Shown in pieces: positions 1 to 34,100 of a DNA stretch of 46,355 nt. The stretch is from NCBI GenBank assembly GCA_015066465.1, contig SVOI01000013.1, forward strand, positions 1 through 46,355, written 5' to 3'. The DNA comes from Oscillospiraceae bacterium. Lineage in GTDB: Bacteria; Bacillota; Clostridia; Oscillospirales; Acutalibacteraceae. Numbering within the stretch: the stretch's first letter is position 1; the number at the start of each line of letters is the position of its first letter. The notes beneath the pieces were generated by a model, which saw only the letters and a list, made by a program, of their open reading frames with translations, made no database searches and was not told the DNA's origin. The position numbers and the translations under genes were made by a program.

Positions 1-918
1 AACAGACTTTCAACTGTTGTTGAAAAAAGCTATGATACAATTATGAGTATCTATGGTGAATCTATAAATGCCGGTGAAATTGTAAGAGAAAATATTCACA
101 CTTTCCTTTATGGTGCTTATGATGTAACTCTCGATTTCAGAAATCTTGTGCCCACAATTATGATGACATTAGGTGTCAGTGCTATTCCTGTTATTTCTTC
201 AGCAATGGCAAAACGCGAGTTTAAGACAGTAGAGAATACAGTAAATACTGTTTTCAGAATGAGTATGTTAATTGCGTTACCTGCAGGTATCGGCTTTTTT
301 GCCCTTGCAGAGCCTATTTTAACAGTGTTCTATCAGGGTAGTGAAAATGAGTCAGGTATTGCAGTAGCGGCGCCTATATTGGCTCTTTACGGACTTATGA
401 TGGGTATTCACACGCTTTCTTCACCACTTACCAACATTTTACAGGCTATTGGCAGAGCAGATGTTCCTGCAAAGGCTCTTGCTATTGGTTGTGGCTTTAA
501 AATTGCGTTTAACTATATTTTAATCGGTATTCCTGAAATAAATATTTTAGGTGCAGTTTTCAGTTCAGGCTGTTTCTATCTTTTCTGTATTTTTTATGAC
601 TATGCTGTGCTTAAAAAAGAAACGGGAATTAAGCTTGATTGGAAAACAGTTTTAATTAAACCTCTTATATCCGCTGTACTTTGTGGTACTGCCGCCTGGG
701 GTACTTACGAGCTTGTCAGCACCTATTTAGTCTTTGGCGATGCCGGAAGCAGATTGAACAGCGGAACACTCGCTTGTGGTATTTCAATAATAATTGCAGT
801 AGTAGTTTATGCAGTTTGTATATTGCTTTCTAAAACAATCGTAAAAGATGATGTTTTAATGCTTCCAAAAGGAGAAAAAATCGCAGAAATACTTGAAAAA
901 TATAAACTTTTAGGGTAA
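1..918 (+). CDS. yabM: Lipid-linked polysaccharide flippase, YabM/SpoVB/MurJ type (5' truncated by window)
   Basis: This is the C-terminal 305 residues of a MOP-superfamily flippase, the membrane proteins that flip lipid-linked cell-wall or spore-cortex precursors. The reading frame is open from the first base, so the N-terminus lies outside the window. It aligns without a length change to residues 293-597 of the complete copy at 24370-26163. Several hydrophobic helices are visible, and the tail is a short charged segment ending KYKLLG. The next gene is mazG, 30 bp downstream, the same pairing as yabM-yabN in Bacillus. The family call is firm; the exact substrate (peptidoglycan lipid II, spore-specific or other) cannot be told from sequence. 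Confidence 0.85.
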   Translation, partial: NRLSTVVEKSYDTIMSIYGESINAGEIVRENIHTFLYGAYDVTLDFRNLVPTIMMTLGVSAIPVISSAMAKREFKTVENTVNTVFRMSMLIALPAGIGFFALAEPILTVFYQGSENESGIAVAAPILALYGLMMGIHTLSSPLTNILQAIGRADVPAKALAIGCGFKIAFNYILIGIPEINILGAVFSSGCFYLFCIFYDYAVLKKETGIKLDWKTVLIKPLISAVLCGTAAWGTYELVSTYLVFGDAGSRLNSGTLACGISIIIAVVVYAVCILLSKTIVKDDVLMLPKGEKIAEILEKYKLLG

Positions 919-948
919 AATGTATTCGTTATATGAGGATGTAAAAAT

Positions 949-1752
949 ATGCTAGTAAATTTTGAATTCAAAGAAAATTATAATTTTAATGACCTTGTTG
1001 AAATTGTGAAAATTCTTCGTTCCCCAGGTGGTTGCCCGTGGGATATGGAGCAAAACCACAAATCAATAAGAGAAGATTTTTTAGAAGAAACTTATGAAGT
1101 GTTAGAAGCTATCGACACAGAGAATAAAGTTCTTTTAGAAGAGGAATTGGGCGATGTTCTTTTGCAGGTTGTGTTCCACGCACAAATCTCAAAAGAAGAT
1201 AGTGACTTTGATATAAATAACGTTACTGACGGAATTTGCAAAAAGCTTATTACTCGTCATCCTCATGTTTTCTCAGATGTTACTGTAAATAGTACTGATG
1301 AGGTTTTAAGCAATTGGGATACTATAAAGCGTCAGACCAAGAGCCAGACAACACAAAGCGTTGCTATGGCGGCAATTCCCAAGACATTCCCGGCACTTAT
1401 GAAAGCACAAAAAGTTCAGAGTAAAGCAAAAAAGGCAGGCTTTGACTGGCCCAGTGCAGACGGTGCATTCAGTAAAGTGCTTGAAGAAACTGAAGAGCTT
1501 AAAGAAGCTTTTAACTCCGGCAATAAAGACAGAATAGAAGATGAGCTTGGTGATTTACTCTTTTCAGCAGTTAATGTTGCTCGTTTTTGTGACTGCAATG
1601 CAGAAAGTGCATTAGAAAAAGCGACACAGAAATTTATGAGAAGATACACCGCAGTTGAGAGGTTAGCAGAAGAAAAAAACATTGATATGAAAACTTCTTC
1701 TATAGAAACACTTGACAAACTTTGGGAATCTGTTAAAATGTTAGAGAGATAA
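949..1752 (+). CDS. mazG: MazG nucleoside triphosphate pyrophosphohydrolase (left-arm copy)
   Basis: This 267-residue protein belongs to the all-alpha NTP pyrophosphatase family that hydrolyses (d)NTPs, including non-canonical ones, to NMP and PPi. The CPWD motif (residues 29-32), EETYE (46-50) and EELGDVL (65-71) form the first metal-binding MazG domain. A second set, EETEEL followed by EDELGDLL, lies near residues 180-205, so it is the tandem-domain form. Its length matches E. coli MazG and lacks the methylase domain of Bacillus YabN. The start has GAGGAT 8 bp upstream. It follows the flippase and precedes hup; a possible hup promoter lies inside its 3' end. The right-arm copy differs mostly at synonymous positions. 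Confidence 0.93.
   Translation: MLVNFEFKENYNFNDLVEIVKILRSPGGCPWDMEQNHKSIREDFLEETYEVLEAIDTENKVLLEEELGDVLLQVVFHAQISKEDSDFDINNVTDGICKKLITRHPHVFSDVTVNSTDEVLSNWDTIKRQTKSQTTQSVAMAAIPKTFPALMKAQKVQSKAKKAGFDWPSADGAFSKVLEETEELKEAFNSGNKDRIEDELGDLLFSAVNVARFCDCNAESALEKATQKFMRRYTAVERLAEEKNIDMKTSSIETLDKLWESVKMLER
1712..1739 (+). promoter_or_regulatory. Possible promoter for hup inside mazG 3' end (left arm)
   Basis: TTGACA, a 16-bp spacer and TAAAAT sit in the last codons of mazG, about 95 bp before the hup start. The identical pair and spacing occur in the right arm. Because the bases also encode protein, conservation alone is not proof of promoter function. Confidence 0.45.
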
Positions 1753-1806
1753 GAAGTCCAAAATGAAGACGGATATTAAGTTTTCGTCTTTTGGTAATAA
1801 AAAAAT

Positions 1807-1821
1807 CAATTATTTTAATTG
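1807..1821 (+). promoter_or_regulatory. Palindrome abutting the hup ribosome binding site (left arm)
   Basis: CAATTATTTTAATTG is an inverted repeat whose last G is the first G of the GGAGGA Shine-Dalgarno of hup. The right arm has CAATTATAATAATTG, also an inverted repeat, at the same place. It could be an operator or an mRNA hairpin that limits ribosome access; this role is inferred. Confidence 0.5.
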
Positions 1822-1833
1822 GAGGATTTAAAA

Positions 1834-2109
1834 ATGAACAAAACAGATTTAGTAAATGCAGTAGCAGCTTCTGCAGAACTCACAAAAAAAGATGCAGCAG
1901 CAGCTGTAGACGCAGTTTTCGGTGCAATCGAAGGCGCTCTCGTTAAAGGTGACAAAGTTCAACTTATCGGCTTTGGTACTTTTGAAGTTCGTGAAAGAGC
2001 AGCTAAAGAAGGCCGTAACCCAAGAACAGGCGAAACAATCAAAATCGCTGCAACAAAGGTTCCTGCATTCAAAGCTGGTAAAGCTCTCAAAGACGCAGTT
2101 AGCAAATAA
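1834..2109 (+). CDS. hup: HU family histone-like DNA-binding protein (left-arm copy)
   Basis: This 91-residue nucleoid protein binds and bends DNA as a dimer. It has the full HU layout: N-terminal [11 protein letters not shown] helix, [12 protein letters not shown] helix, the [22 protein letters not shown] beta-arm region with its conserved RNPRTG tip near residue 64, and the C-terminal helix [14 protein letters not shown]. The ATG start is chosen because GGAGGA lies 7 bp upstream; an in-frame TTG further upstream overlaps that site and is not a plausible start. A strong terminator follows. It differs from the right-arm copy by three substitutions and two single-residue indels. Confidence 0.97.
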
Positions 2110-2124
2110 TTTTACTTAATGTAT

Positions 2125-2159
2125 AAAAAGCAGAGAAGTTTTTGACTTCTCTGCTTTTT
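2125..2159 (+). terminator. Rho-independent terminator of hup (left arm)
   Basis: An AAAGCAGAGAAGT stem pairs with ACTTCTCTGCTTT and is followed by a T-run. An equivalent hairpin follows the right-arm hup. Confidence 0.9.
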
Positions 2160-2174
2160 ATTTTGCGTAAATAC

Positions 2175-2203
2175 TTGAATTTTTAATTAAAAATATATAC
2201 AAT
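2175..2203 (+). promoter_or_regulatory. Promoter of the acyltransferase-like gene (left arm)
   Basis: TTGAAT, a 17-bp spacer and TACAAT lie 40 bp before the start codon. The right arm keeps TTGAAA, 17 bp and TACAAT at the same position, with much of the AT-rich spacer unchanged. Confidence 0.7.
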
Positions 2204-2242
2204 ATAAATGTTTTAAAAGTACCTTAAGAAAGAGAAGATGTT

Positions 2243-3166
2243 ATGAAATACTTAAACGAACATTTTAAATTAGTTGAAGAAAAATTAGAGCTTCCCAAAG
2301 AAGCAGTTGAGCTTTTTGAAAGCATTGCATTAAAAATTGAAAAAAGTAAAGGCTTTTCCAAAAGATTCCAGGCTAGTTTAGAAAAATATATGACACCAAA
2401 GGCACACGACTTTGGCGATATGTGTGACGATATGAAAAAATTAGCTATACTTTACAGAGTTAAGGAATATAGCCTGACTTTTGTGTGGCTTATTGTTGCA
2501 AGTGAAAAGATGTTAGAGCTTTACAGAGAAAAGGGTATCAGTGAAGATATTTATTGGGCTACAATAATGGACTTAAAATATAAGTTCAAGGAATGCGTTG
2601 AATGCAAAGAGGTTTATGGTACATTCGTTGGTAGCTGGAACACAGGCTTTTATGAGCTTAACCGTTTCGCTTTAGGTCGCTTCCAGTTTGAATATTCTAC
2701 ATTCGGTGTGGTTGATGAATTCACTACAAGTGCAGGCGTTAAAATTAAAAGAGGCGACAAAACAGTCGGCTTTCACATTCCGTCATCAGGCGTACCGCTT
2801 ACAGATGAAATTCGCCTTGATGCTTACAAAAAGGCTTATGAATTCTTTAAGGACCAGAGAAGAGAAGACGGACTTATGATATTTGAATGTGGCTCATGGC
2901 TTCTTTATGAGGGCAATAAAGAAATTTTACCTGAAAATTCAAATACAGTTAAATTTATAAATGACTTTGAAATTATTAAAAGCGAGACAAAAGATAAATT
3001 TAACGATGCGTGGAGAATTTTTGCAAAGTCCGGTTATAAATCACCAAAGCATTGGTACGATGACACATCAATGCGCCGTGCTTTCAAGCAACATGTATTA
3101 AACGGTGGCAAAACAGGTAGCGGACACGGGGTTATTGTGTTTGATGGAACTAAGATAGTAAGATAG
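2243..3166 (+). CDS. Acyltransferase-like protein of unknown function, possibly NAT_N/GNAT_C type (left-arm copy)
   Basis: This soluble protein of 307 residues has no signal peptide or membrane segment. Residues 141-150 (RFALGRFQFE) and 178-186 (HIPSSGVPL) resemble motifs I associate with Clostridia proteins annotated as acyltransferase domain-containing, which pair an alpha-helical N-terminal domain with a GNAT-like C-terminal domain. That recognition is from memory and tentative. No catalytic residue can be assigned. It has its own promoter, stands alone after hup, and converges on the ABC permease. The right-arm copy is full length and very similar, so both appear to be under selection. 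Confidence 0.55.
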   Translation: MKYLNEHFKLVEEKLELPKEAVELFESIALKIEKSKGFSKRFQASLEKYMTPKAHDFGDMCDDMKKLAILYRVKEYSLTFVWLIVASEKMLELYREKGISEDIYWATIMDLKYKFKECVECKEVYGTFVGSWNTGFYELNRFALGRFQFEYSTFGVVDEFTTSAGVKIKRGDKTVGFHIPSSGVPLTDEIRLDAYKKAYEFFKDQRREDGLMIFECGSWLLYEGNKEILPENSNTVKFINDFEIIKSETKDKFNDAWRIFAKSGYKSPKHWYDDTSMRRAFKQHVLNGGKTGSGHGVIVFDGTKIVR

Positions 3167-3318
3167 AAAACAGGAAGCAGGAAACAGAAAACAGAAAACA
3201 GAAAACAGTTGAAAATAAAACACCTATCATTTTTAGTTGATTACTTGACCAACTTTAAATGATAGGTGAATTTGTTTTTTGCGAAGCTCTGTTTTCTGTT
3301 TCCTGCTTCCTGTTTTCT
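3165..3318. repeat. Inverted heptamer-repeat element, unit (G/A)AAACAG (left arm)
   Basis: The left side carries tandem 7-bp units of the GAAACAG/GAAGCAG/AAAACAG type. The 30-bp segment 3165-3194 is a perfect inverted match to 3289-3318. Between the arms lie a terminator hairpin and a short GCGAAGC motif. The right arm of the window has an element at the same intergenic site with a different heptamer. Confidence 0.85.
3221..3268. terminator. Bidirectional terminator between acyltransferase-like gene and ABC permease (left arm)
   Basis: The 12-bp stem CACCTATCATTT pairs with AAATGATAGGTG. The core TATCATTTTTAGT...AAATGATA is conserved in the right arm at the equivalent place between the same two convergent genes. 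Confidence 0.75.
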
Positions 3319-3322
3319 GAAT

Positions 3323-5821
3323 TTAAAGTTTCACTTTAAATTCAGACGGTAGCTTATTCTCCGGAATAAAGCAAAGGGAAGCGTCGCCTGTTGATGTGAA
3401 GAATGTTACAAAATAGCCACTATCTGTTGAATCCTGCTCGTAAGCAGTGTAGGCATATCTTAAAAGCTTTTCTATGTCCTTGCTATTGTTAGTAACGAAG
3501 CCATCAAATTTTGTGTCGATTGTTGTGTTGTAACGACTCCAATCATCTTGAACAGGGTTGCCGTATTCATCAACATTTGTGTAGCCTTTTGCAGTATATG
3601 TTGATATAAAATATCGTGAGAAAAAATGTTGTATATTACCAAAACCAGATGCAAAAGAGCCTTCGTAGGCAACAGATGATGGAATGATTTTAGCCGAAAC
3701 AAAATCTGGTGTTTTAATAAGGTCATCATAAAGCTTTAAATTCTTTAACGCCTTGATTGTTTCTGTCATATCAGGTGTAATTGTAAAGAACGGGTATGGG
3801 TTATAGTAGCTTGAAATATAAAAATCCGCCTTGTCAGAAGAAAAATCATTCATAATGATTTCTGTCTTTGTGTTTTTAGTTGATTGCTCCTTTTCGGTTG
3901 CTACATCGTCAGAATTTCCTCCGCCGTTTGCAGTGTCGATAATATCCCAATAAACAGAGTCGTAATTACCCTCAAATCGTATAAACGCAACAGGTGATGA
4001 GTCCGGGTAGTATTTATCAGTTACAGAACGATTCATTAAATCGTTATAAAGTGCGGTTAAGAGCTTTTCTCTGTCTTTGTCAGAGAAAGAAATGTGAGCA
4101 TAAGAGTCAAGGTATTTTGAATAAATATTTACAGTTGAAGATGAATCTCTTAAAGAGAACTGCGCAGTTGCAAGGGTTTGCTCACTGTTAGAAAGATAAA
4201 CAGCATTTTTAGGGTCAGGGAATTTAATTGTCCCCTTGAAAAGCTCGTGGAGTGAATTTTTGAAATATTGGCTTTCTTCAAGATAAAGCAAAGCTCTGTA
4301 AGCTGCTGGGGTGGAGGTGCTGAAGTTACGCTTAAATGTAGAGCCGTCTTTTAAGGTGTAAGAAAATTGAATAGCATTTTCGAGCGTTCTTTCATTTTCA
4401 TCTGAATTTGCAATTAACTCGTGTGCTTTAAGGGCTGCTTTTATATCTTCTTCAGAAGTCATTTCGCCTGTGAGAACACCGGGATTGTTTGTGAAGAATA
4501 AATTGTGGTCTGTTATAAAGTGTGAATCCTCACCAAATAAACCATATTGTGAGGTTTCACCTACAATAGAAACAGAAACACTTTTAATTTTTTCGAAATC
4601 TGGAAGCTTTTGAGAGTAACCGAAAAAGCCCGTGTTCATAGAAACTGCAAAAAGACTCACCGCAACAAGACCAATAGGTAATTTGTAAAGTCCTCTTACA
4701 AATTTCTTCAAATCTCTTAAAACTGCAAGTTCGAGACCTAAATGGATAATTGCAAAGGCAATTAAGCCTATTACAATACCCATAATAAACTCTTCTGCAA
4801 CATAAATCGCAAAAGCGAAAACAAAGAAGCCTGCAAGGAATGAAACGAATGTATTTAAAATTCTGTTTGTGCCTATAAAGCCTGCAATTTCTGCTTTGCG
4901 TCTGTTAAAGAGTTTAACCCCGATAAACCCAATAACAGCAGTTAAAATAATCCATAAAATAACATTTGTAAAGGATGGTTTTTCAATTATCTGTTGTACT
5001 GCTGAATCTGTTGATTTTTCAATTATTGCAAATTTTAAAAGCTCTGTTTTTGCGAAAAATACAGGACTTGTAAATTCAAATTGCTCTGAAAGAGTTGCAA
5101 CATAAGAGTTATCCCAGCTGTTGTTGTTAGCAGGTGTAAAGTTAAAGCCGTAAGGGTTACCGTAAAGGCAGTTAGACATAATAGTCTGAATACCATAAAG
5201 AATTATATCCGGTAAAAAGAGGATAATTCCTGAAAAAATACCAGCCTCAAAAATTGTACCAACGCACGAGAAAACGGTTGCAGTTATTGTGAATGCAGAA
5301 AGTGATACAACTAAAAATGAGAACAAATAAAGGAAAAAAGTTTTAAAAACAATACCTGAAAAGCCGAGTGTTGCAAGGTTCATTATAAGTAAAATGAATA
5401 AAGGCAAGAAAATTGATGTAACTAAAAGAGAAGCACCGGAAATATATTTGCCCAAAAAGAGCTTTGTTCGTGTTATACCAAGGCTGTAAAAAACATTAAC
5501 CTGCTTTTTAGAGGTGATAAAATTGAATGTGCAGATTGCCATTGCAAGACCGCAAAGAGCAACTAAGACAAGGCAGGGCATAAGCATATATTCGTCTGAG
5601 AAGAAATATGAAATATAATTCTGCTTTGCAGAAACATAACCTGAGATTTCGCCTGTGGCGTTATAAATAGGCTGTTTGTTTAAAAGCTCAGCTCCCGAAT
5701 AAAGAAGCATAAAAAAGCTTAACAAGCCTAAATTGGCGATTGCAGGTAAAAGCGGAAGTCCTTTAAGACCTGACTTTAAGGTGTATGTAAAAGCATTAGT
5801 TGAGGATTGATTTGTAGTCAT
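3323..5821 (-). CDS. ABC transporter permease with large extracytoplasmic domain (left-arm copy)
   Basis: This 832-residue membrane protein pairs with the ATPase encoded just upstream. An N-terminal helix near residues 28-45 is followed by several helices up to about residue 400. These include the FNFITSKKQVNVFYSLG(I) type cytoplasmic loop seen in ABC-2/FtsX-like permeases. The remaining roughly 430 residues are hydrophilic and probably extracytoplasmic. Such architecture fits an antimicrobial-peptide, lipid or sensory transporter, but the substrate is unknown. It overlaps the ATPase gene by 26 bp, so the two are translationally coupled; AGGAG lies before the ATG. The right-arm homologue has 827 residues and diverges most in the hydrophilic domain. 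Confidence 0.8.
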   Translation of the reverse strand: MTTNQSSTNAFTYTLKSGLKGLPLLPAIANLGLLSFFMLLYSGAELLNKQPIYNATGEISGYVSAKQNYISYFFSDEYMLMPCLVLVALCGLAMAICTFNFITSKKQVNVFYSLGITRTKLFLGKYISGASLLVTSIFLPLFILLIMNLATLGFSGIVFKTFFLYLFSFLVVSLSAFTITATVFSCVGTIFEAGIFSGIILFLPDIILYGIQTIMSNCLYGNPYGFNFTPANNNSWDNSYVATLSEQFEFTSPVFFAKTELLKFAIIEKSTDSAVQQIIEKPSFTNVILWIILTAVIGFIGVKLFNRRKAEIAGFIGTNRILNTFVSFLAGFFVFAFAIYVAEEFIMGIVIGLIAFAIIHLGLELAVLRDLKKFVRGLYKLPIGLVAVSLFAVSMNTGFFGYSQKLPDFEKIKSVSVSIVGETSQYGLFGEDSHFITDHNLFFTNNPGVLTGEMTSEEDIKAALKAHELIANSDENERTLENAIQFSYTLKDGSTFKRNFSTSTPAAYRALLYLEESQYFKNSLHELFKGTIKFPDPKNAVYLSNSEQTLATAQFSLRDSSSTVNIYSKYLDSYAHISFSDKDREKLLTALYNDLMNRSVTDKYYPDSSPVAFIRFEGNYDSVYWDIIDTANGGGNSDDVATEKEQSTKNTKTEIIMNDFSSDKADFYISSYYNPYPFFTITPDMTETIKALKNLKLYDDLIKTPDFVSAKIIPSSVAYEGSFASGFGNIQHFFSRYFISTYTAKGYTNVDEYGNPVQDDWSRYNTTIDTKFDGFVTNNSKDIEKLLRYAYTAYEQDSTDSGYFVTFFTSTGDASLCFIPENKLPSEFKVKL

Positions 5822-6695
5822 AGTCTTCTCCTTTCATCTCCTGCATAAATATCTCTTCAAGAGAAAGATTGATTTTTTCTGTAACGGCAGGCTTTAATTT
5901 TTTGATTTGTTTTTCGACCTCTTCGGTATTTCCGCTTACTGTAAAGAGTGCTAATTGACCGTCTTTAATAAGGCTTTCACAAGGAATATCTTTAAATTCC
6001 TCGAGAGTGAATTCTCTTGCGAATGCAAGACGGAACTTAGTCTTGCCGTAAGAAAGGTCAGAAACTGCGCCTGTAACAGAAATCTTTTTGCCGTTTATAA
6101 TTCCAATATGGTCGCAAAGATTTTCTAATTCCTGTAGGTTGTGTGAAGAAATAATAACTGACATATTATTTTCTTTAATTGCTTCTTTTAAAAGACCTTT
6201 CATAAATATTCTTTTTTGCGGGTCAATTCCGTCAAAGCTTTCGTCAAGAAGTAACAATTTAGGGTGAGTAGAAAGGGCTAAAACCATTTCTGCCTGTCTT
6301 TGCATACCTTTAGAAAAGCCGTTAATTCGCTTTGTAGGGTCTAACCCAAAGGCTTCGGTTAATTTATTAAAGGTATCATAATTAAATCTTTTATAATATC
6401 CGTTATAAAAGTCAGCCATTTTCTTCATTGTGGAGTAAGCACCAAAATAAAGGTCATCAGGCATAAAGAATATTTCTTCTTTTTTTATTTCGTTGTCAAA
6501 AATATTTTTGCCGTCAAAAAGCACTTCGCCATTTTCCGGCTTGTAAATACCCGAAATGTTTTTTAAAAGAGTTGTTTTACCGGCACCGTTGTAACCAACA
6601 AGACCATAAACGCTTCCGTCCTCGACAGTGAGCGAAATGTCCTGAAGTGCTGTAAAGTCTCCGAATTTTTTAGTTAATGATTTTACTTCGAGCAT
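5796..6695 (-). CDS. ABC transporter ATP-binding protein (left-arm copy)
   Basis: This 299-residue ATPase powers the adjacent permease. Walker A GYNGAGKTT is at 34-42, the signature segment NGFSKGMQRQ at 125-134, Walker B LLLLDE at 147-152, and the switch histidine in SSHNL at 185. It resembles the YtrB/BcrA-like group. The start is set at the ATG that matches the right-arm copy and follows AGGTGA; an upstream in-frame GTG overlaps that site. Transcription starts from a promoter shared back-to-back with the phosphoesterase promoter. Confidence 0.93.
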   Translation of the reverse strand: MLEVKSLTKKFGDFTALQDISLTVEDGSVYGLVGYNGAGKTTLLKNISGIYKPENGEVLFDGKNIFDNEIKKEEIFFMPDDLYFGAYSTMKKMADFYNGYYKRFNYDTFNKLTEAFGLDPTKRINGFSKGMQRQAEMVLALSTHPKLLLLDESFDGIDPQKRIFMKGLLKEAIKENNMSVIISSHNLQELENLCDHIGIINGKKISVTGAVSDLSYGKTKFRLAFAREFTLEEFKDIPCESLIKDGQLALFTVSGNTEEVEKQIKKLKPAVTEKINLSLEEIFMQEMKGEDYDYKSILN

Positions 6696-6730
6696 CCTTG
6701 TCACCTGACTTTCTTATTTGTTTTTTATTT

Positions 6731-6732
6731 TA
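6731..6732. other. Empty target site corresponding to the right-arm MITE
   Basis: This TA dinucleotide is where the left arm aligns across the MITE inserted at 18125-18398. The left-arm flanks (TATTTTAAATTG) match the right-arm flanks once the element and one TA are removed. Confidence 0.7.
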
Positions 6733-6825
6733 AATTGAAAATTAAAATTTGTCTATATATAATAAGATGTTTCTTTGCTACATTTTGTTGCATTTTAAAA
6801 ATAACTTTCGTCGTGTCATATTTCA

Positions 6826-6854
6826 ATTTTACAATTATTGCAGTATGCAGTCAA
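6826..6854 (-). promoter_or_regulatory. Promoter of the ABC operon (left arm)
   Basis: On the minus strand TTGACT, a 17-bp spacer and TAAAAT are present. The right arm has TTGCAA, 17 bp and TAAAAT. The leader before the ATPase start is about 125 nt. Confidence 0.75.
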
Positions 6855-6924
6855 TACGATTTACTGTTTCTTAACAAATCTTAATATTTTCGTAATAATG
6901 AAACGGGAAAAATTCGAGAACTAA

Positions 6925-6953
6925 TTGACAATAACAGGTAATTTTGTTATATT
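6925..6953 (+). promoter_or_regulatory. Promoter of the secreted metallophosphoesterase (left arm)
   Basis: TTGACA, a 17-bp spacer and TATATT. Both hexamers and the spacing are identical in the right arm. The interval from the ATPase start to the phosphoesterase start (about 320 bp) holds only these two divergent promoters and AT-rich DNA. Confidence 0.85.
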
Positions 6954-7014
6954 AAAATTGTATATTTTCAAATAGCGTATAAGGTTTCGCTTAATTTAAA
7001 AAAGGTGGTATATG

Positions 7015-8733
7015 ATGAAGAAGATATTAGCTGTTATACTTGTCTTGACATTCGCTGTTACAATGTTTGTTGTACCGGCAAATGCGGCGTGGTCTGTTGT
7101 TGATACTACTTTTGCAGTATCAGCCGATTTACATTACGAATTTCAGGAAGAAGAGCTTGAATGGTTCTCAGAGGACCCTATTTTCGGTTACGCAAACCGC
7201 AGAGCCGCTATGGAAAACGAAAGCAGATATATCATTGATGAATTTTTAAATCAATGTGCTGAGAATGATAAAATAGAATTCATTTTAATTCCGGGCGACA
7301 TTTCTAATGAGGGCAGAGCATTCAAGGAGCAACATTTGCAGGTAGCAGAAAAATTCAAAAAATTTGAAGAAGAAACCGGAAAGCAGATTTATGTTATAAA
7401 TGGTAACCACGATGCCGGAAATGCTACTAAAGAAGGCGAAACAGGTCTTTCTGATTTCAGAGAAATTTATTATGAGTTTGGTTTTAATGAAGCACTCAGC
7501 ACAATGGATGGCAATTTATCTTATACAGCAGAACTTAATGAAAAATATCGTCTTATTGCAGCAGATAGCTGTGATATTAACCGTTCAACAGGCGACGGTA
7601 TGACATCTGACAGAGTTGAGTGGGTTACAGAACAAGCAAAGCTTGCAATCAAAGAGGGTAAATACCCGATTTTAATGATGCACCATAATCTTCTTGATCA
7701 TATGCCTGTTCAAAGCCTTTTAAGTAAAGATTTTATTATCAGAAATCACCTTTCAACTGCAGAAAAATTTGCAAATGCAGGCATCAAGGTAGTGTTCACA
7801 GGTCACGAGCATTGCAGTGACGCCAACACATATACAAGCACAAAGGGTAATCAGATTACTGACTTTGCTACAACCTCACTTACAATGTATCCGTTACAAT
7901 ACAGAATTATGGAAATGTCTGATGAAACAATTACCTATGAAGCTGCAACAATTGAAAAAATTGATGCAGAAAATTTAAAAGATGATGTAATCGGTTACAC
8001 AGACGCTCATATTGCTGAAATGAACAAGGGTATGAACGATTATGCTAAAAAGTTCTTAAAGAACGGTATTGAGTGGCGTCTTGAAAGAGGCTTCCAGGAT
8101 GAGCAATTGGGCATTGACAAGGGCGCATTTTACTATGACCTTGTAAGGAAAGCTGTTGATGCTTTAAATGATATTCTTAACACCCCTCTTTATGGTGAGG
8201 GTGGCGTTCAGGAAATGGCACTCCAGAAAGGAATTATTATTCCGGATAGTGATTATGTTGATGGTTGGGATGTAGCAACAGAGCTTGTTGCTGCACACTA
8301 TTCAGGTGAAGAAAATTATCCGTTAATGGAAACTGATGTAACAATCCTTTTAAGAACAATGTGCCTTATTTTAGACACTGAGCTTTCAATGCTCACAGAA
8401 GAAGAACTTATGGTGGCGGCAACTGCCATAACTGCACTTTACGGCTCAACACCACCTGATGAGTTAGCAGAAAAATTAGAGCTTGATTTAGGCTATTCTC
8501 ACGGTGCACAAAGCTTCTTGTTAGCACTTGCCTCACCACTTCTTGACAGCTTTGCAAATGACGACGATGTTCCCGATAACAACGGCTCAATTAAAGGTTA
8601 CGGAAGAACAGGTGCTGCAGATGGTTTTATAAATATCGCAGGCGAGATTGAATTTTCATTTGCAAAATTGATTGAAAGATTAAAAACAATATTAACTTAT
8701 ATATTTAAAGGTTTAGAGTATATTAAAGGCTAA
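7015..8733 (+). CDS. Secreted calcineurin-like metallophosphoesterase (left-arm copy)
   Basis: This 572-residue protein has a signal peptide (MKK plus a hydrophobic stretch to about residue 20, cleavage after ANA at 24). The metallophosphoesterase motifs follow in order: DLH (38-40), GD (93-94), GNHD (129-132), MHHN (221-224) and GHEH (262-265), giving the full dinuclear metal site. The C-terminal 290 residues form an uncharacterised helical domain ending in a hydrophobic segment that could anchor it. It likely hydrolyses phosphoesters outside the membrane; substrate unknown. The second of two adjacent ATG codons is preferred because it aligns with the right-arm start. A terminator follows directly. 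Confidence 0.9.
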   Translation: MKKILAVILVLTFAVTMFVVPANAAWSVVDTTFAVSADLHYEFQEEELEWFSEDPIFGYANRRAAMENESRYIIDEFLNQCAENDKIEFILIPGDISNEGRAFKEQHLQVAEKFKKFEEETGKQIYVINGNHDAGNATKEGETGLSDFREIYYEFGFNEALSTMDGNLSYTAELNEKYRLIAADSCDINRSTGDGMTSDRVEWVTEQAKLAIKEGKYPILMMHHNLLDHMPVQSLLSKDFIIRNHLSTAEKFANAGIKVVFTGHEHCSDANTYTSTKGNQITDFATTSLTMYPLQYRIMEMSDETITYEAATIEKIDAENLKDDVIGYTDAHIAEMNKGMNDYAKKFLKNGIEWRLERGFQDEQLGIDKGAFYYDLVRKAVDALNDILNTPLYGEGGVQEMALQKGIIIPDSDYVDGWDVATELVAAHYSGEENYPLMETDVTILLRTMCLILDTELSMLTEEELMVAATAITALYGSTPPDELAEKLELDLGYSHGAQSFLLALASPLLDSFANDDDVPDNNGSIKGYGRTGAADGFINIAGEIEFSFAKLIERLKTILTYIFKGLEYIKG

Positions 8734-8741
8734 TGGAAGAT

Positions 8742-8783
8742 AAAAAACGGGCAATTCTCAAAGTTGAGAGTTGTCCGTTTTTT
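8742..8783 (+). terminator. Terminator of the left-arm phosphoesterase
   Basis: AACGGGCAATTCTCA pairs with TGAGAGTTGTCCGTT and is followed by a T-run. A closely similar hairpin at 15079-15114 ends the right arm, so this is the last element shared by both arms. Confidence 0.9.
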
Positions 8784-8788
8784 GAAAT

Positions 8789-8891
8789 TATTCATCATTC
8801 ATCAGCGAAAGCGATTTCATTATTCATTATTCATTGAAAATCCGTTCTTCACAAAAGAATAATGAATGATGAATATTGAAGAATGAATAAT
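8789..8891. repeat. Inverted heptamer-repeat element, unit ATTCATT/ATTCATC
   Basis: ATTCATC is repeated twice at 8790-8803, and ATTATTC/ATTCATT units lie at 8819-8835. The opposite arm (8858-8891) carries AATGAATGATGAAT units that are their reverse complement. A GCGAAAGCG motif lies between the arms, resembling the GCGAAGC of the element near 3281. Confidence 0.75.
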
Positions 8892-8899
8892 ACAAAACA

Positions 8900-8930
8900 A
8901 AAATCCGTTCCCTTGTGAGAACGGATTTTT
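8900..8930 (-). terminator. Original tRNA-Arg terminator, now separated from the intact gene
   Basis: AAAATCCGTTC pairs with GAACGGATTTT immediately beyond the CCA end of the tRNA-Arg fragment. It was presumably the terminator of the tRNA gene before the island inserted. Confidence 0.7.
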
Positions 8931-8934
8931 GTTT

Positions 8935-8979
8935 TGGCGCGCTGGAAGGGACTCGAACCCCTGACCTACTGGTTCGTAG
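8935..8979 (-). repeat. Partial tRNA-Arg (3' half), attachment-site repeat
   Basis: These 45 bp are identical to 14202-14246 and cover the tRNA from the anticodon loop to the encoded CCA. Identity stops exactly in the anticodon loop on one side and at CCA on the other. This is the signature of integration by a tyrosine recombinase into a tRNA gene; no such recombinase gene remains in the window. Confidence 0.9.
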
Positions 8980-9103
8980 GCGCCACCAAAACTTACCAAC
9001 CATTCCATACCACAACATATAGTGGTTTTTATTCCGGTTACAAATACTATTCCACAACAATATTTCCAATAATTCCAAATGTTCCAAGTCTCTGTGTGGG
9101 ATG

Positions 9104-14201: not shown

Positions 14202-14278
14202 TGGCGCGCTGGAAGGGACTCGAACCCCTGACCTACTGGTTCGTAGCCAGTCACTCTATCCAACTGAGCTACCAGCGC
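14202..14278 (-). tRNA. tRNA-Arg (anticodon ACG)
   Basis: A 77-nt gene including encoded CCA. The acceptor GCGCTGG pairs with CCAGCGC. The anticodon loop is CTACGAA between CTGG and CCAG, and the T-arm is GGGGTTCGAGTCCC. It is the second gene of a leftward Gly-Arg unit and the target of the island; the 3' 45 bp are duplicated at 8935-8979. Confidence 0.97.
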
Positions 14279-18436: not shown

Positions 18437-19336
18437 ATGTTAGAGGTTAAAGCTTTAACTAAAAAATTCGGTACGTTTACCGCTTTACAAGATATTTCCC
18501 TCACCGTTGAGGACGGTAGTGTTTACGGTCTTGTAGGCTACAACGGTGCTGGTAAAACTACTCTTTTAAAAAATATAGCCGGTATTTATAAGCCAGAGAG
18601 TGGCGAGGTTCTTTATGACGGTGAGCAAATTTTTGATAATGAAATAAAAAAAGAAGAAATCTTCTTTATGCCAGATGACCTTTATTTTGGTGCATACGCT
18701 ACTATGAAGAAAATGGCTGACTTTTATAATGGCTACTATAAAAGATTCAGTTACGACACTTTTAATAAATTAACTGAGGCTTTTGGCTTAGACCCTACAA
18801 AGAGAATCAACGGCTTTTCTAAGGGTATGCAACGACAAGCAGAAATGGTTTTAGCTCTTTCTACTCACCCTAAGCTCTTGCTTCTTGACGAAAGCTTTGA
18901 CGGAATTGACCCTCAAAAAAGAATTTTTATGAAAGGTCTTTTAAAAGAGGCTATTAATGAAAATAATATGTCGGTTATTATTTCTTCTCACAACTTGCAA
19001 GAATTAGAAAATCTTTGTGACCATATAGGCATTATAAATGGTAAAAAGATTTCTGTTACAGGTGCTGTAAGTGAACTTTCCTACGGTAAAACAAAATTCA
19101 GACTTGCATTTGCAAGAGAATTTACTCTTGATGAATTCAGTGGTATTCCTTGCGAAAACCTTATTAAAGATGGTCAGCTTGCACTCTTTACAGTAAACGG
19201 TAACACTGAAGAAGTAGAAAAGCAGATTGCCGCCTTAAAACCTGACGTTACCGAAAAAATCAACCTTTCTCTTGAAGAAATATTTATGCAGGAGATGAAA
19301 GGAGAAGACTATGACTACAAATCAATCCTCTACTAA
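18437..19336 (+). CDS. ABC transporter ATP-binding protein (right-arm copy)
   Basis: 299 residues, colinear with the left copy and with all ATPase motifs unchanged (Walker A GYNGAGKTT 34-42, NGFSKGMQRQ 125-134, LLLLDE 147-152, SSHNL near 183-187). The start follows AGGTGACACA. Differences are conservative and concentrated after residue 225, in the accessory C-terminal part. It overlaps the permease by 26 bp as in the left arm. Confidence 0.93.
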   Translation: MLEVKALTKKFGTFTALQDISLTVEDGSVYGLVGYNGAGKTTLLKNIAGIYKPESGEVLYDGEQIFDNEIKKEEIFFMPDDLYFGAYATMKKMADFYNGYYKRFSYDTFNKLTEAFGLDPTKRINGFSKGMQRQAEMVLALSTHPKLLLLDESFDGIDPQKRIFMKGLLKEAINENNMSVIISSHNLQELENLCDHIGIINGKKISVTGAVSELSYGKTKFRLAFAREFTLDEFSGIPCENLIKDGQLALFTVNGNTEEVEKQIAALKPDVTEKINLSLEEIFMQEMKGEDYDYKSILY

Positions 19337-21794
19337 TGTATTTTCACATACATATAAAACTGGTCTTAAAGGCTTACCTATTTTACCTGCCCTTGCAAAC
19401 TTTGGTATTCTCGCCTTTTTTGTAACCTTCTTTACAGGCGTTGAAATTCTCTCAAAACAAGTTCTTTATAACCAGAACGGCGAACAAATCGGCCACATTT
19501 CATCTTCCAGCAAATATCTTTCTTTCTTTTTCGGTGCAGGCGAAGAGCTTGTTATGCCAACACTTGTTTTAGTAGCACTTACAGGTCTTGCTATGGCTAT
19601 TTGTATGTTTAATTTTATTACCTCTAAAAAACAAGTTAACGTTTACTACAGCCTTGGTATAACACGAACAAGATTATTTTTAGGTAAATATTTAGCTGGT
19701 ATAACACTTCTTTCAATTTCAACTTTTATACCTTTATTTATTACACTTATTTTAAATCTTGCTGTTTTAGGTTTTTCTGGAATAGTTTTTAAAACATTCT
19801 TTTTGTATTTATTCACATTCTTAATTGTTTCAATTTCTGCTTTTACAATTACAGCAACTATTTTCTCTTGTGTCGGCACAGTTTTTGAAGCTGGTGTATT
19901 CTCTTCTGTAATTCTCTTTTTACCAGACATTCTCCTCTTCGGAGTTCAGTCTGTTATGGCAAAATTCCTTTACGGCAACCCTTATGGCTTTGACTTTGTT
20001 CCTGCTAATAATGATAGCTGGGATAACTCATACGTTGCAACTCTTTCTGAACAATTCAATTTTTTAAGCCCTGTTTTCTTTATGAAAAAACAACTTTCGG
20101 ATTTTTCAATAATCGAAAGAGAAGAAACAAAAGAAGGCGTGAAACAAATTATTGAAAGCCCTGACTTCACAAATATTATTCTCTGGGTTATTTTCATAGT
20201 AGCCATTGCATTTTTGGGTATTAAGCTTTACAACAAGCGTAAGGCTGAAATTGCAGGCTTTATAGGCACTAACAGAATTTTAAACACCTTTGTTTCATTA
20301 CTTGCTGCATTCTTTGCTTTTTCACTTGTTGTATCAATTTCAAGTAAACTATTAGTTGGTATTATTATAGGTGCTATCAGCTTTATTTTAATCCACTTAG
20401 GTCTTGAACTTGCAGTTTTAAGAGATTTAAAGAAATTCGTTCGTGGCCTTTACAAATTACCTGTTGGACTTGTTGCAGTCTCTCTCTTTGTTGTTTCTAT
20501 GAACACAGGTCTTTTCGGCTTTTCTGAAAAAATTCCTGAAGAAGCAAAAATCAAAAGCGTTTCTGTAACTATTGTCGGTGAAACAACCGGCTACGGCTTA
20601 TTTGGTGAAGGCGACAGATGGTACTCAGACAACAACTTCCAATATATTCCTGCAACTAATGTGTTAACTGGCGAATTAACTTCTTCTGAAGATATAAAAT
20701 CTGCTATTAAAGCACATAAACTTATAGCAAATACAGACGTTGAAGATGCAACACTCAGCAATAATATTCAATTTACTTACACATTAAAGGATGGCTCTAC
20801 CTTCAAACGTAATTTTGATAAGGTTTCCCCAGAAGCTTACAAAGCAGTTCTTTATTTGGAAGAAAGTAATTACTTTAAAAATTCTTTAGACACACTCTTC
20901 AAAGGAGAAATTAAGTTCCCGAAACCTCAGGAGGGCATTCGTCTTTCAGCAAGTGAAGAAGCTGTTTCTAATGCACAATTCTGTTTAAGAGATTCTTCTT
21001 CAACTGTCAGCATTTACTCAAGATATTTAGATTCTTATTTCTATGGTACACTTTCAGAAAAAGACAGAGCAAAGCTTTTAACAGCACTTTACAACGACCT
21101 TTCAAAGCGTTCTGTTACAGATAAATATTACCCAGATGGCTGCCCTGTTGCATTTATGAAATTTGAGGGCGATTTCTACTCAGCTTATTGGGCTACATTA
21201 GAAACAAACACTAATGAATCTGACAAAGAAACCACTAAAAAAGAAAAGCCAAAGACACACTTTGACCTTTGCGATTATTCTTCTGACCAGGTAGAGCTCT
21301 ACACTTCGAGCTTTTATAATCCAAACCCGTTCTTTGTAATTACTGATGATATGACAGAAACAATTTCGCTTTTAAAGAAGCTCAAGCTTTATGACGACCT
21401 TATAAAGACACCTGACTTTGTTTCTGCTGAAATTCTTAAAGCTGACGTTTGTTACAACGGAACTTATGCTCAAGAGGGTTCTACTCAAAAATATTTTTCA
21501 AGATATTTTATTACAACCTACACTTCAACGTCTTATGTTTCGCTCGATGAGCACGGCAACCCCGTTAGCGACCCCTGGATTCGTTACAGCAACACTATAG
21601 ACAAGATGTTTGACGGTTACATTACTAACGATATAAAAGACGTTGAAAAGCTCTTGAGATACTCTTACACAGCGTATGAACAAGATTCTCCTGACAGTGG
21701 CTATTTTGTAACGTTCTACACTTCAAACGGTGACACTTCTCTTTGCTTTATTCCGGAGAATAAGTTGCCATCTGAGTTTAAAGTGAAATTATAA
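19311..21794 (+). CDS. ABC transporter permease with large extracytoplasmic domain (right-arm copy)
   Basis: 827 residues with the same architecture as the left copy: membrane helices up to about residue 400, then a hydrophilic domain. The membrane part and the last 60 residues are nearly unchanged, ending in the shared ENKLPSEFKVKL. The extracytoplasmic part differs by substitutions and small indels around residues 420-460 and 620-640, suggesting faster change in the surface-exposed region. The start is the ATG after AAAGGAGAAG. A substrate cannot be assigned. Confidence 0.8.
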   Translation: MTTNQSSTNVFSHTYKTGLKGLPILPALANFGILAFFVTFFTGVEILSKQVLYNQNGEQIGHISSSSKYLSFFFGAGEELVMPTLVLVALTGLAMAICMFNFITSKKQVNVYYSLGITRTRLFLGKYLAGITLLSISTFIPLFITLILNLAVLGFSGIVFKTFFLYLFTFLIVSISAFTITATIFSCVGTVFEAGVFSSVILFLPDILLFGVQSVMAKFLYGNPYGFDFVPANNDSWDNSYVATLSEQFNFLSPVFFMKKQLSDFSIIEREETKEGVKQIIESPDFTNIILWVIFIVAIAFLGIKLYNKRKAEIAGFIGTNRILNTFVSLLAAFFAFSLVVSISSKLLVGIIIGAISFILIHLGLELAVLRDLKKFVRGLYKLPVGLVAVSLFVVSMNTGLFGFSEKIPEEAKIKSVSVTIVGETTGYGLFGEGDRWYSDNNFQYIPATNVLTGELTSSEDIKSAIKAHKLIANTDVEDATLSNNIQFTYTLKDGSTFKRNFDKVSPEAYKAVLYLEESNYFKNSLDTLFKGEIKFPKPQEGIRLSASEEAVSNAQFCLRDSSSTVSIYSRYLDSYFYGTLSEKDRAKLLTALYNDLSKRSVTDKYYPDGCPVAFMKFEGDFYSAYWATLETNTNESDKETTKKEKPKTHFDLCDYSSDQVELYTSSFYNPNPFFVITDDMTETISLLKKLKLYDDLIKTPDFVSAEILKADVCYNGTYAQEGSTQKYFSRYFITTYTSTSYVSLDEHGNPVSDPWIRYSNTIDKMFDGYITNDIKDVEKLLRYSYTAYEQDSPDSGYFVTFYTSNGDTSLCFIPENKLPSEFKVKL

Positions 21795-21827
21795 TAATTC
21801 GATTTTGAAGATTAATAAGCATAAAAA

Positions 21828-22087
21828 AGTGCTGAGTGCTGAATGCTGAGTGCTGAGTTGTGGAAACGCTTCGCGTTTGATTATAATTATTAATCTATAA
21901 AACAACAAAATTCTATCATTTTTAGTTTACGATAAACTTTAAATGATAGAATTTTTATTTCTTATAATTATATTAATTTTTACTATTTTGTTAGTAAAAA
22001 CGTAAAGATAAATTTACTATTACAATTAATTATTATAATAGCGTCGCAGACCCGAAACTCAGCACTCAGCACTTTGCACTCAGCACT
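21828..22087. repeat. Inverted heptamer-repeat element, unit AGTGCTG (right arm)
   Basis: AGTGCTG units fill 21828-21858, and the inverted counterpart is 22057-22087, with about four mismatches over 31 bp. Inside lie AAACGCTTCGCGTTT (21864-21878), the conserved TATCATTT terminator and AT-rich DNA. It occupies the same intergenic site as the element at 3165-3318, yet the heptamer is unrelated. The whole 21795-22127 gap contains no gene. Confidence 0.85.
21908..21954. terminator. Bidirectional terminator between ABC permease and acyltransferase-like gene (right arm)
   Basis: AAATTCTATCATTT pairs with AAATGATAGAATTT, with an inner AGTTT/AAACT stem. It is the orthologue of the hairpin at 3221-3268. 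Confidence 0.8.
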
Positions 22088-22127
22088 ATTTGGAGTCCAG
22101 AATTCGACGATTAAATAAGGCGTGTCA

Positions 22128-23051
22128 TTACTTTACTATCTTAGTACCATCGAAAACAATAACCCCATTACCACTACCAGTTTTACCACCAGCGAGAACG
22201 TGGTTTTTAAAGGCTCTTCGCATTGATGTGTCATCATACCAATGTTTAGGTGCTTTATAACCTGATTTTGCAAAAATTCTCCAGGCATCGTTAAATTTAT
22301 CTTTGGCTTCACTTCTTACAAGCTCAAAATCGTTTATAAATTTAACTGTGTTTGAGTTTTCTGGTAAAATCTCTTTATTACCCTCATAAAGAAGCCATGA
22401 GCCACATTCAAAGATTATAAGACCATCTTCACGGCGTTGGTCTTTAAAGAACTCATACGCCTTTTTATAAGCATCAAAACGAGCTTCGTCTGTAAGTGGT
22501 ACGCCACTTGATGGAATATGGAAGCCAACAGTTTTGTCTCCTCTTTTAATTTTTATACCAGCACTTGTTGTAAATTCATCTTGCACACCAAAATTAGAAT
22601 ATTCAAACTGGAAACGACCTAAAGCGAAACGGTTAAGATTATAAAAACCTGTATTCCAGCCACCAACAAATGTACCATAAACACCTTTACATTCAACACA
22701 TTCCTTGAACTTATATTTTAAGTCCATAATGGTATCCCAATAAATATCTTCGCTGATGCCCTTTTCTCTGTAAAGCTCAAGCATTTTTTCACTTGCAACA
22801 ATAAGCCACACAAAAGTGAGACTATATTCCTTAACTCTGTAAAGAAATGCAAGTTTTTTCATATCATCGCACATATCACCAAAATCGTGTGCTTCTGGTG
22901 TCATATACTTATCAAGTGTAGCCTGAAATCTTTTTGAAAAGCTATCGCTCTTCTCAATTTTCAATGCAATTTTATGGAAAAGCTCAACTGCTTCTTGTGG
23001 AAGCTCTAATTTTTTCTCAACTAATTTAAAATGTTCATTTAAATACTTCAT
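22128..23051 (-). CDS. Acyltransferase-like protein of unknown function (right-arm copy)
   Basis: 307 residues, colinear with the left copy, keeping RFALGRFQFE and HIPSSGVPL. The start was set at the ATG that matches the left copy; another in-frame ATG lies two codons upstream and is equally possible from the weak upstream GTGAGAT. It is expressed from its own promoter and converges on the permease. The NAT_N/GNAT_C family suggestion is from memory; function remains unassigned. Confidence 0.55.
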   Translation of the reverse strand: MKYLNEHFKLVEKKLELPQEAVELFHKIALKIEKSDSFSKRFQATLDKYMTPEAHDFGDMCDDMKKLAFLYRVKEYSLTFVWLIVASEKMLELYREKGISEDIYWDTIMDLKYKFKECVECKGVYGTFVGGWNTGFYNLNRFALGRFQFEYSNFGVQDEFTTSAGIKIKRGDKTVGFHIPSSGVPLTDEARFDAYKKAYEFFKDQRREDGLIIFECGSWLLYEGNKEILPENSNTVKFINDFELVRSEAKDKFNDAWRIFAKSGYKAPKHWYDDTSMRRAFKNHVLAGGKTGSGNGVIVFDGTKIVK

Positions 23052-23088
23052 AGCCATATCTCACTTACTTAATTTTTTGATATAGTAT

Positions 23089-34016: not shown

Positions 34017-34072
34017 GAGTTAAATTAGTTAGCATTGTAGAGGGCTAACCTTTGGTTTCCCGTGAAGAAATG

Positions 34073-34100
34073 CACAATTCACAATGCATAATGCACAATA
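34073..34100. repeat. Single-arm heptamer-repeat tract, unit CACAAT(T/G/A)
   Basis: Four tandem heptamers: CACAATT, CACAATG, CATAATG, CACAATA. No inverted partner was found nearby, unlike the other three loci. It lies in the gene-free stretch 33957-34261, which also holds the recJ promoter, a terminator and an imperfect inverted repeat (GTAGAGGGCTAA near 34036 with TAACCCTCTAC near 34180). Confidence 0.65.

Follow-up and report, generated by a model that had tools for sequence, protein, structure and literature searches.

Facing heptamer arrays around a conserved hairpin: a modular, dispersed and probably bidirectional terminator-like element at gene ends of an uncultured gut bacterium

In an uncultured gut bacterium, a hairpin recurs at dozens of gene ends inside facing stacks of heptamers, the letters of which vary by species. 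Here we describe this element from a copy at positions 21824-22091 of the window, that is, of the whole stretch of 46,355 nucleotides that was analysed (contig SVOI01000013.1 of an Oscillospiraceae bacterium). With slightly more confidence than doubt, it is read as a modular, dispersed and probably bidirectional terminator-like element, the arms of which would turn over by slippage and by exchange among copies. Many bacteria have an excess of heptamer repeats that lacks an agreed explanation. Each genome of the genus studied here offers dozens of copies, with orthologous sites in different states: halves kept, one half swapped, a unit lost or a module changed. How 7-nt arrays and matching inverted arms came about therefore becomes testable by strain comparison.

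Architecture of the element and the two arms of the contig

The element at 21824-22091 is, as read from the sequence, a nested inverted structure that occupies one intergenic gap of a convergent gene pair. Its upstream neighbour (19311-21794, plus strand) encodes a product of 827 aa for which a Pfam search returned no match, and the gene on the other side (22128-23057, minus strand) has the NAT_N/GNAT_C acyltransferase domains in Pfam. From the outside to the inside, each half begins with about 4.4 heptamers in tandem, continues with a small hairpin and ends in a ATTATAAT box; the core hairpin is in the centre. The left array (21828-21858, plus strand), identified by reading and by a tandem-repeat search, is made up of AGTGCTG twice, one AATGCTG, another AGTGCTG and a partial AGT, with its purine-rich strand running inward. 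It is followed by the left small hairpin, AAACGC-TTC-GCGTTT (21864-21878, plus strand; read and folded), which presents a GAA triloop on the minus strand, and by the left ATTATAAT box (21880-21887; read), which forms the inner end of the left half-module and recurs in many copies. The core hairpin (21907-21955, from an RNA fold) has a 15-bp outer stem, AAAATTCTATCATTT/AAATGATAGAATTTT, a TT/TT internal mismatch, a 6-bp inner stem and a CGA loop; TATCATTT lies in the outer stem at 21914, with an inverted copy at 21941. Reading alone gave the features of the right half. These are the ATTATAAT box that closes the half-module on its inner side (22032-22039), the small hairpin GTC-GCA-GAC with a GNA triloop (22043-22051, plus strand) and an array on the minus strand (22057-22087) that is the inverse of the left AGTGCTG array, with one AGTGCAA unit. 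GNA loops give very stable DNA mini-hairpins.

The two arms (21824-21859 and 22056-22091), of 36 nt each, are 89% complementary. AGTGCTG occurs 13 times in the whole window against 4.57 expected, a count that none of 100 shuffles reached. The element is also far more stable than shuffled sequence, with z = -13.8 for the RNA fold (0 of 200 shuffles equally stable) and z = -11.8 for the DNA fold. In an Rfam search at the gathering score, the element had no match, and the sole matches in the window were four tRNAs. A reading of TATCATTT as a DNA uptake-type word was weakly rejected because it is hardly over-represented outside the cores: the window holds 10 matches, of which 4 lie inside two cores, against 4.64 expected, and 3 of 100 shuffles were as high.

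The element at 3165-3319 repeats this layout, its units being of the CAGAAAA/CAGGAAG type, and the flanking genes are convergent there too. The left array (3165-3208, plus strand) has CAGAAAA/CAGGAAG units that are the same in locus L196 of genome G011, the core hairpin (3225-3264) was located by a pattern search, and the right array (3288-3319, minus strand) is complementary to the left one over 31 nt at 100%. The first-pass annotation of the window had described these two places as one intergenic site, between the same two convergent genes, where the same core is framed by unrelated heptamer arms that remain inverted to each other, and this description was borne out. The GCGAAGC-like motif that it had pointed to belongs to the small hairpin at 21864-21878 (minus strand), and GCGAAGC itself lies at 3281-3287 in the other arm.

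What needs to be revised is the nature of that other arm. Compared with contig C11 of G011, a genome of the sister species SIG596, window positions 740-4663 are 99.975% identical, positions 6000-9000 are 100% identical, and positions 8900-9061 are 100% identical until the G011 contig stops. The window is thus nearly identical to SIG596 over 1-9061 wherever it was compared (740-4663 and 6000-9061). The second arm is 85.7% identical to the same G011 locus over 2428 nt. With the first arm at about 100% and the second at 85.7%, the two most probably represent one locus of two species, joined; the contig is probably a chimera, which would be the likeliest cause of its two arms. The element and the heptamers of the other arm are real, and the arm itself is most likely SIG596 sequence rather than a second copy of the own genome, so that the comparison drawn in the annotation would be one of orthologous sites between species. 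A paralogous inverted duplication within one genome was rejected on the near-identity of the first arm to SIG596. The gene beside the element is present once in G011, and twice plus a distant third copy in the own genome, where the end of contig C76 also holds a piece 88% similar to window 8928-9060. An exact direct copy of 45 nt (8935-8979 and 14202-14246 of the window) comprises the 3' part of a tRNA-Arg and resembles the ends of integrated elements; a Pfam search of six ORFs between the two copies found no integrase.

A dispersed family at gene 3' ends

The exact core pattern occurs at 32 places in the own genome and its reversed control at none, and BLAST with the element returned 102 pieces. 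This pattern fixes TATCATTT and AGTT, and the conservation of these letters in the cores is therefore by construction. Core matches were found in 13 of the 40 relatives searched, in 2 of 19 genera. At least 141 cores were collected; after 9 with short flanks had been dropped, 132 copies with flanks of at least 150 nt were used, of which 35 come from the own genome (80.6% complete), 49 from SIG596, 17 from SIG595, 11 from each of two rectum MAGs and 9 from others. Five of the 132 (L099, L123, L142, L150 and L172) belong to unrelated organisms and are probably chance matches; they are included in the period-7, strict-family, covariation and placement counts and left out of the lenient-rule counts for other genomes.

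Heptamers are a general feature of the family. A period-7 run is present in 199 of the 264 flanks of the 132 copies and in 1 of the shuffled flanks, and the other periods from 3 to 15 stay at or below 8 of 264, with the exception of 14, a harmonic, which reaches 164. The window and 130 loci, 131 sequences in all, contain 329 arrays. If each array is given a direction by its purine-rich strand, adjacent pairs within 450 nt face inward in 94 cases, run in tandem in 52 (28 + 24) and face outward in 8; an inward-facing partner exists for 230 of the 329 arrays and is missing for 99. Small hairpins are common as well. In 125 of 264 half-modules, the stretch from the array to the ATTATAAT box could be isolated as a linker. 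A stem of 3 bp or more occurs in 94% of these linkers (39% after shuffling), and one of 4 bp or more in 65% (10% after shuffling). Their loops are mainly TGC, GAA, TTC, TAC and AAA, with the count for GAA partly inflated by TTGAAA units left in the linker. At two loci, L090 and L151, arrays of different heptamers are stacked or clustered, and L090 also has a different core hairpin. A lone AATGCAC/AATTCAC array lies at 34069-34099 of the window, in a non-coding stretch.

The outer stem of the core covaries across the 132 copies. Bases pair in 128 copies at position -2 (95.5 in shuffles), in 113 at -5 (62.7) and in 105 at -6 (73.7), and positions -2, -4, -5 and -6, which lie outside the letters fixed by the pattern, are all far above the shuffles. 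The length of the core loop ranges from 3 to 20, and this variability favours a hairpin over a double-stranded site for a dimer. Outside the stem, the sequence is A-rich on the left and T-rich on the right. With respect to genes, taken from mechanically called ORFs, 69 copies lie between convergent genes, 51 between tandem and 2 between divergent ones, with 10 unassigned, and 4 of the 132 cores fall inside an ORF. Within the collection loci, gaps with a core are convergent in 40 cases, tandem in 29 and divergent in 1, as compared with 27, 258 and 49 for gaps without a core (13, 56 and 36 for those of at least 100 nt). The covarying stem, the A- and T-rich sides and the placement at 3' ends fit a bidirectional terminator, and the core hairpin is probably an intrinsic transcription terminator of this type. 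Against this reading, the stem itself is AT-rich, and a consensus scan picked the left small hairpin as terminator-like and not the core.

As a dispersed extragenic palindrome, the element resembles the REP sequences of REP/RAYT systems. A search of the own genome for the Y1 transposase (PF01797) gave a single match at 20.4 bits, under the cut-off of 23 bits, and the 1992-nt locus of this match contains no core pattern. A Y1/REP (RAYT) system was rejected, with no Y1 transposase over the cut-off in a genome that is 80.6% complete.

Coupling and turnover of the arms

Ten arm families were distinguished as regular-expression classes drawn up by eye: AGTGCTG, AATGCAG, AATGCAC, AATTCGG, TTGAAAR, AATTAAR, YAGGAAN, TTAGRTG, AGTNGCA and GTCAGTN. 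Under a strict rule, which considers the array nearest to the core and keeps AATGCAG and AATGCAC separate, both arms share a family in 14 of 26 copies of the own genome (4.5 expected; 0 of 10,000 reshuffles as high) and in 25 of 43 copies of SIG596 (11.1 expected). Three smaller genome sets agree (p 0.004 to 0.03), so that sharing exceeds the chance level in all five genomes that were analysed. A lenient rule, which accepts any array within 175 nt and merges AATGCAG with AATGCAC, raises the figures to 22 of 26 in the own genome (9.5 expected) and 56 of 71 in the others (32.6 expected). Among the 97 copies with both arms classified, 40 have different families on the left and right by the strict rule, a number that overstates independence because only the nearest array is considered and AATGCAG and AATGCAC count as different; by the lenient rule, 78 share a family and 19 do not (4 of 26 in the own genome and 15 of 71 in the others). 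The coupling of the two arms is real and strong, but not absolute. The families are also not sealed off from each other, as AGTGCTG, AATGCTG, AGTGCAG and AATGCAG are neighbours within a single array of L103/L137. Mirroring of unit variants is weak within genomes for YAGGAAN (n=13, p = 0.04) and was not found for the AGTGCTG, AATGCAG, TTGAAAR and AATTAAR classes (n=32, p = 0.22); with genomes mixed, it reaches p = 0.0001 for YAGGAAN and p = 0.016 for TTGAAAR, values that weaken once genomes are separated.

At the site where the two arms had been compared, the core is present in G000, G011, G001 and G018. The own genome has AGTGCTG half-modules there; the arrays of G011, G001 and G018 are variants of a single YAGGAAN array that stay in register. 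For G015, inspection by eye showed the gene pair but no element. The first-pass annotation had named stepwise intermediates as something that would argue against concerted replacement, and such intermediates exist in the YAGGAAN arrays of these three species and within the L103/L137 array. Its idea of a concerted rewriting of both arms is partly supported, given that family sharing is above chance and that both halves changed in 22 of 32 ortholog comparisons, which overlap with one another; one half was kept in 8 of these and both were kept in 2. The stronger claim that the arms must change together is not supported, in view of the 19 copies with no shared family and of two half-replaced pairs. 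Between L025 and L026, with flanks 91% and 98% identical, the left half and the core are the same except for one 7-nt unit, and the right half is replaced. Between L138 and L147, with flanks at 83% and 86%, the left half is identical at 106 of 110 positions and the right half is different. These two pairs are the clear cases among the 8 with one half kept, the rest being borderline, differences in array length or armless sides. The core has the opposite orientation relative to the genes in 13 of the 32 overlapping comparisons.

Arms and small hairpins can also be followed within the own genome. An exact 31-mer of the left AGTGCTG arm, including its odd third unit, is found at three more sites, on contigs C8, C45 and C90, of which those on C8 and C90 appear to be the same repeat, located where contigs end. 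After the four identical left arms, there are three different small hairpins, and arms and small hairpins therefore reassort. When the 31-nt pattern was searched with one free base in 295 genomes of the order, it was found at 8 places in the own genome and 2 in G157 and was absent from the remaining genomes of this draw, which held no other genome of the own genus; the sister species do carry the AGTGCTG arm of 21828-21858, at L024 and L152. The G157 matches lie in a GC-rich setting, with no small hairpin seen. Taken together, the gain or loss of 7-nt units, in-register drift, the replacement of one half, the reassortment of arms with small hairpins and cores in both orientations have all been observed.

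The preferred reading accommodates these events in the following way. A hairpin, putatively a bidirectional intrinsic terminator at gene 3' ends, would form the centre, and each half-module would consist of about four heptamers with the purine strand inward, often a hairpin with a GNA or TNC loop, and the ATTATAAT box. Arrays would change their length by whole 7-nt units and accumulate point changes in register, as both are seen to do, and halves or pieces of halves would be swapped singly for kinds present in other copies, as in the two clear pairs above. The new halves may come from ectopic recombination or template switching between dispersed copies. The core, found in either orientation to the genes, would presumably flip. 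Matched arms would arise when a donor supplies both halves or when one arm is copied from the other within the hairpin. At the site first described, a YAGGAAN array drifts in three sister species, and the own genome carries an entirely unlike version with AGTGCTG arms, of a kind that is common at its other sites. Some results sit less easily with this reading. Both halves changed in 22 of the 32 overlapping comparisons and 78 of 97 copies have matched arms, which would fit the replacement or insertion of whole elements equally; variant mirroring within genomes is weak; and no donor-recipient event was caught base by base.

Repeated insertion at the same spot, one of the two processes named in the first-pass annotation, stays as a rival. 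Here, a non-autonomous, MITE-like element would insert repeatedly at terminator sites with both its arms, and the heptamers would mark subfamilies. The dozens of dispersed copies, the stacked or clustered arrays of different families at L090 and L151, and those same counts of changed halves and shared families agree with it, as does the L003 site, where the element of the own genome has, by eye, a plain terminator-like hairpin as its counterpart in G015. However, a target duplication was not found in 80 copies (outer direct-repeat score 5.19 for own against 5.27 for cross pairs), the search of the own genome for PF01797 alone gave no Y1 match that passed the cut-off, and the half-replacements (L025/L026, L138/L147) and the reassortment of arms and small hairpins speak against insertion. 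We consider it unlikely, if a serious candidate.

A rewriting of the arms in place is more doubtful. The arms would pair and one would serve as template for the other during replication (quasipalindrome correction), and a new unit would spread through its own array before crossing to the opposite arm. The SIG596-like copy, with arms complementary at 31 of 31 nt, the sharing of families between arms, the weak mirroring of YAGGAAN variants (p = 0.04) and the opposite core orientation in 13 of 32 overlapping comparisons, which fits hairpin-mediated switching, are what one would expect from it. The copies of the AGTGCTG, AATGCAG, TTGAAAR and AATTAAR classes, with no such mirroring (p = 0.22), and the 19 of 97 that share no family even under the lenient rule, are not.

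One may also imagine, at the speculative end, a dedicated activity in the genus that writes or exchanges 7-nt modules at gene ends, keeping their period and inward orientation and changing their letters. If it existed, half-modules with their own small hairpins would move between terminator hairpins, and the 3' ends of each species would converge on heptamers of its own. That an old element has simply diverged, with selection acting on pairing alone, is highly improbable: the in-register stepwise variants of three species at the site of the finding would suit it, but the letters change under a constant period of 7, L025 and L026 differ in an entire half-module in spite of flanks 91% and 98% identical, and the L103/L137 element is identical at 191 of 193 aligned positions (with one 5-nt gap) as against 167 of 200 and 171 of 198 in the adjacent 200-nt flanks of these two species. 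The L103/L137 element itself could be younger than the species split, have been exchanged between species, or be under strong constraint.

Relation to known heptamer repeats

A literature search, with thin coverage of subscription papers, found no published description of this element. Its kind is known, if little studied: the element belongs with the inverted arrays of tandem heptamers in Xanthomonas and Geobacter. To these it adds a conserved core hairpin at the ends of genes, the accompanying small hairpins, a range of families within one genus and turnover half by half. Cyanobacterial STRR heptamers are likewise tandem, with several kinds per genome.

In Xanthomonas, GGGAATC heptamers form tandem arrays, mostly of four units and mostly intergenic; 70 and 75 cases of two close arrays in convergent (inverted) arrangement are given, and the intergenic patterns vary strongly between close species (PMC4692102). 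The element here shares the tandem 7-nt units, often four, the intergenic location, the inverted pairs and the variation between species (PMC4692102). In contrast, Xanthomonas has one G-rich family, and here there are ten, most of them without GGG (PMC4692102); a single G-rich, quadruplex-capable unit is a trait of Xanthomonas and Nostoc and does not describe the element here. The core hairpin, the small hairpins and the swap for unrelated units are found here, and the portion of the Xanthomonas text compared describes none of them (PMC4692102). The same source mentions three tandem heptanucleotides in Calothrix (PMC4692102).

The multicopy sequences of Geobacter metallireducens include elements with four tandem heptanucleotides, and most class 3 sites have five tandem heptanucleotides, MTYCTGA, which are drawn looping from strand to strand (PMC2700814). 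Four to five tandem heptamers, dispersed and with sites on opposite strands, are shared with the element here, and by our own comparison MTYCTGA resembles the ATTCTGA units of some arms (PMC2700814). The Geobacter sequences differ in being called predicted regulator binding sites or RNA elements, and the GGACCGG elements are found inside genes as well; turnover from species to species, as seen here, is not described in the part of the text compared (PMC2700814). The TAACTGA direct repeats of marine Beggiatoaceae are likewise tandem, mostly intergenic and sporadic across phyla, but consist of a single heptamer, lie mostly upstream of start codons and include one inverted repeat only (PMC4679880). 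For 7-nt repeats, the idea of a 7-nt contact with DNA polymerase has been quoted (PMC4692102; PMC4679880). The core finds its likeness in the bidirectional intrinsic terminators of Bacillus cereus, which have a palindromic stem between convergent genes and compensatory changes in the stem, but which in the text compared are neither a dispersed repeat nor equipped with heptamer arms (PMC5381666).

Heptamers also occur in other settings. Two loci of G157 (L253 and L255), a GC-rich genome of another family, have perfect AGTGCTG arrays of nearly five units without a core, and the array of L253 presumably lies inside a polA-like reading frame, judged by eye. A second kind of element is found at 8786-8961 of the window. 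Its heptamers are ATTCATT/ATTCATC, it includes a GCGAAAGC motif and a terminator-like stem of its own, and about a dozen similar places are present in G011.
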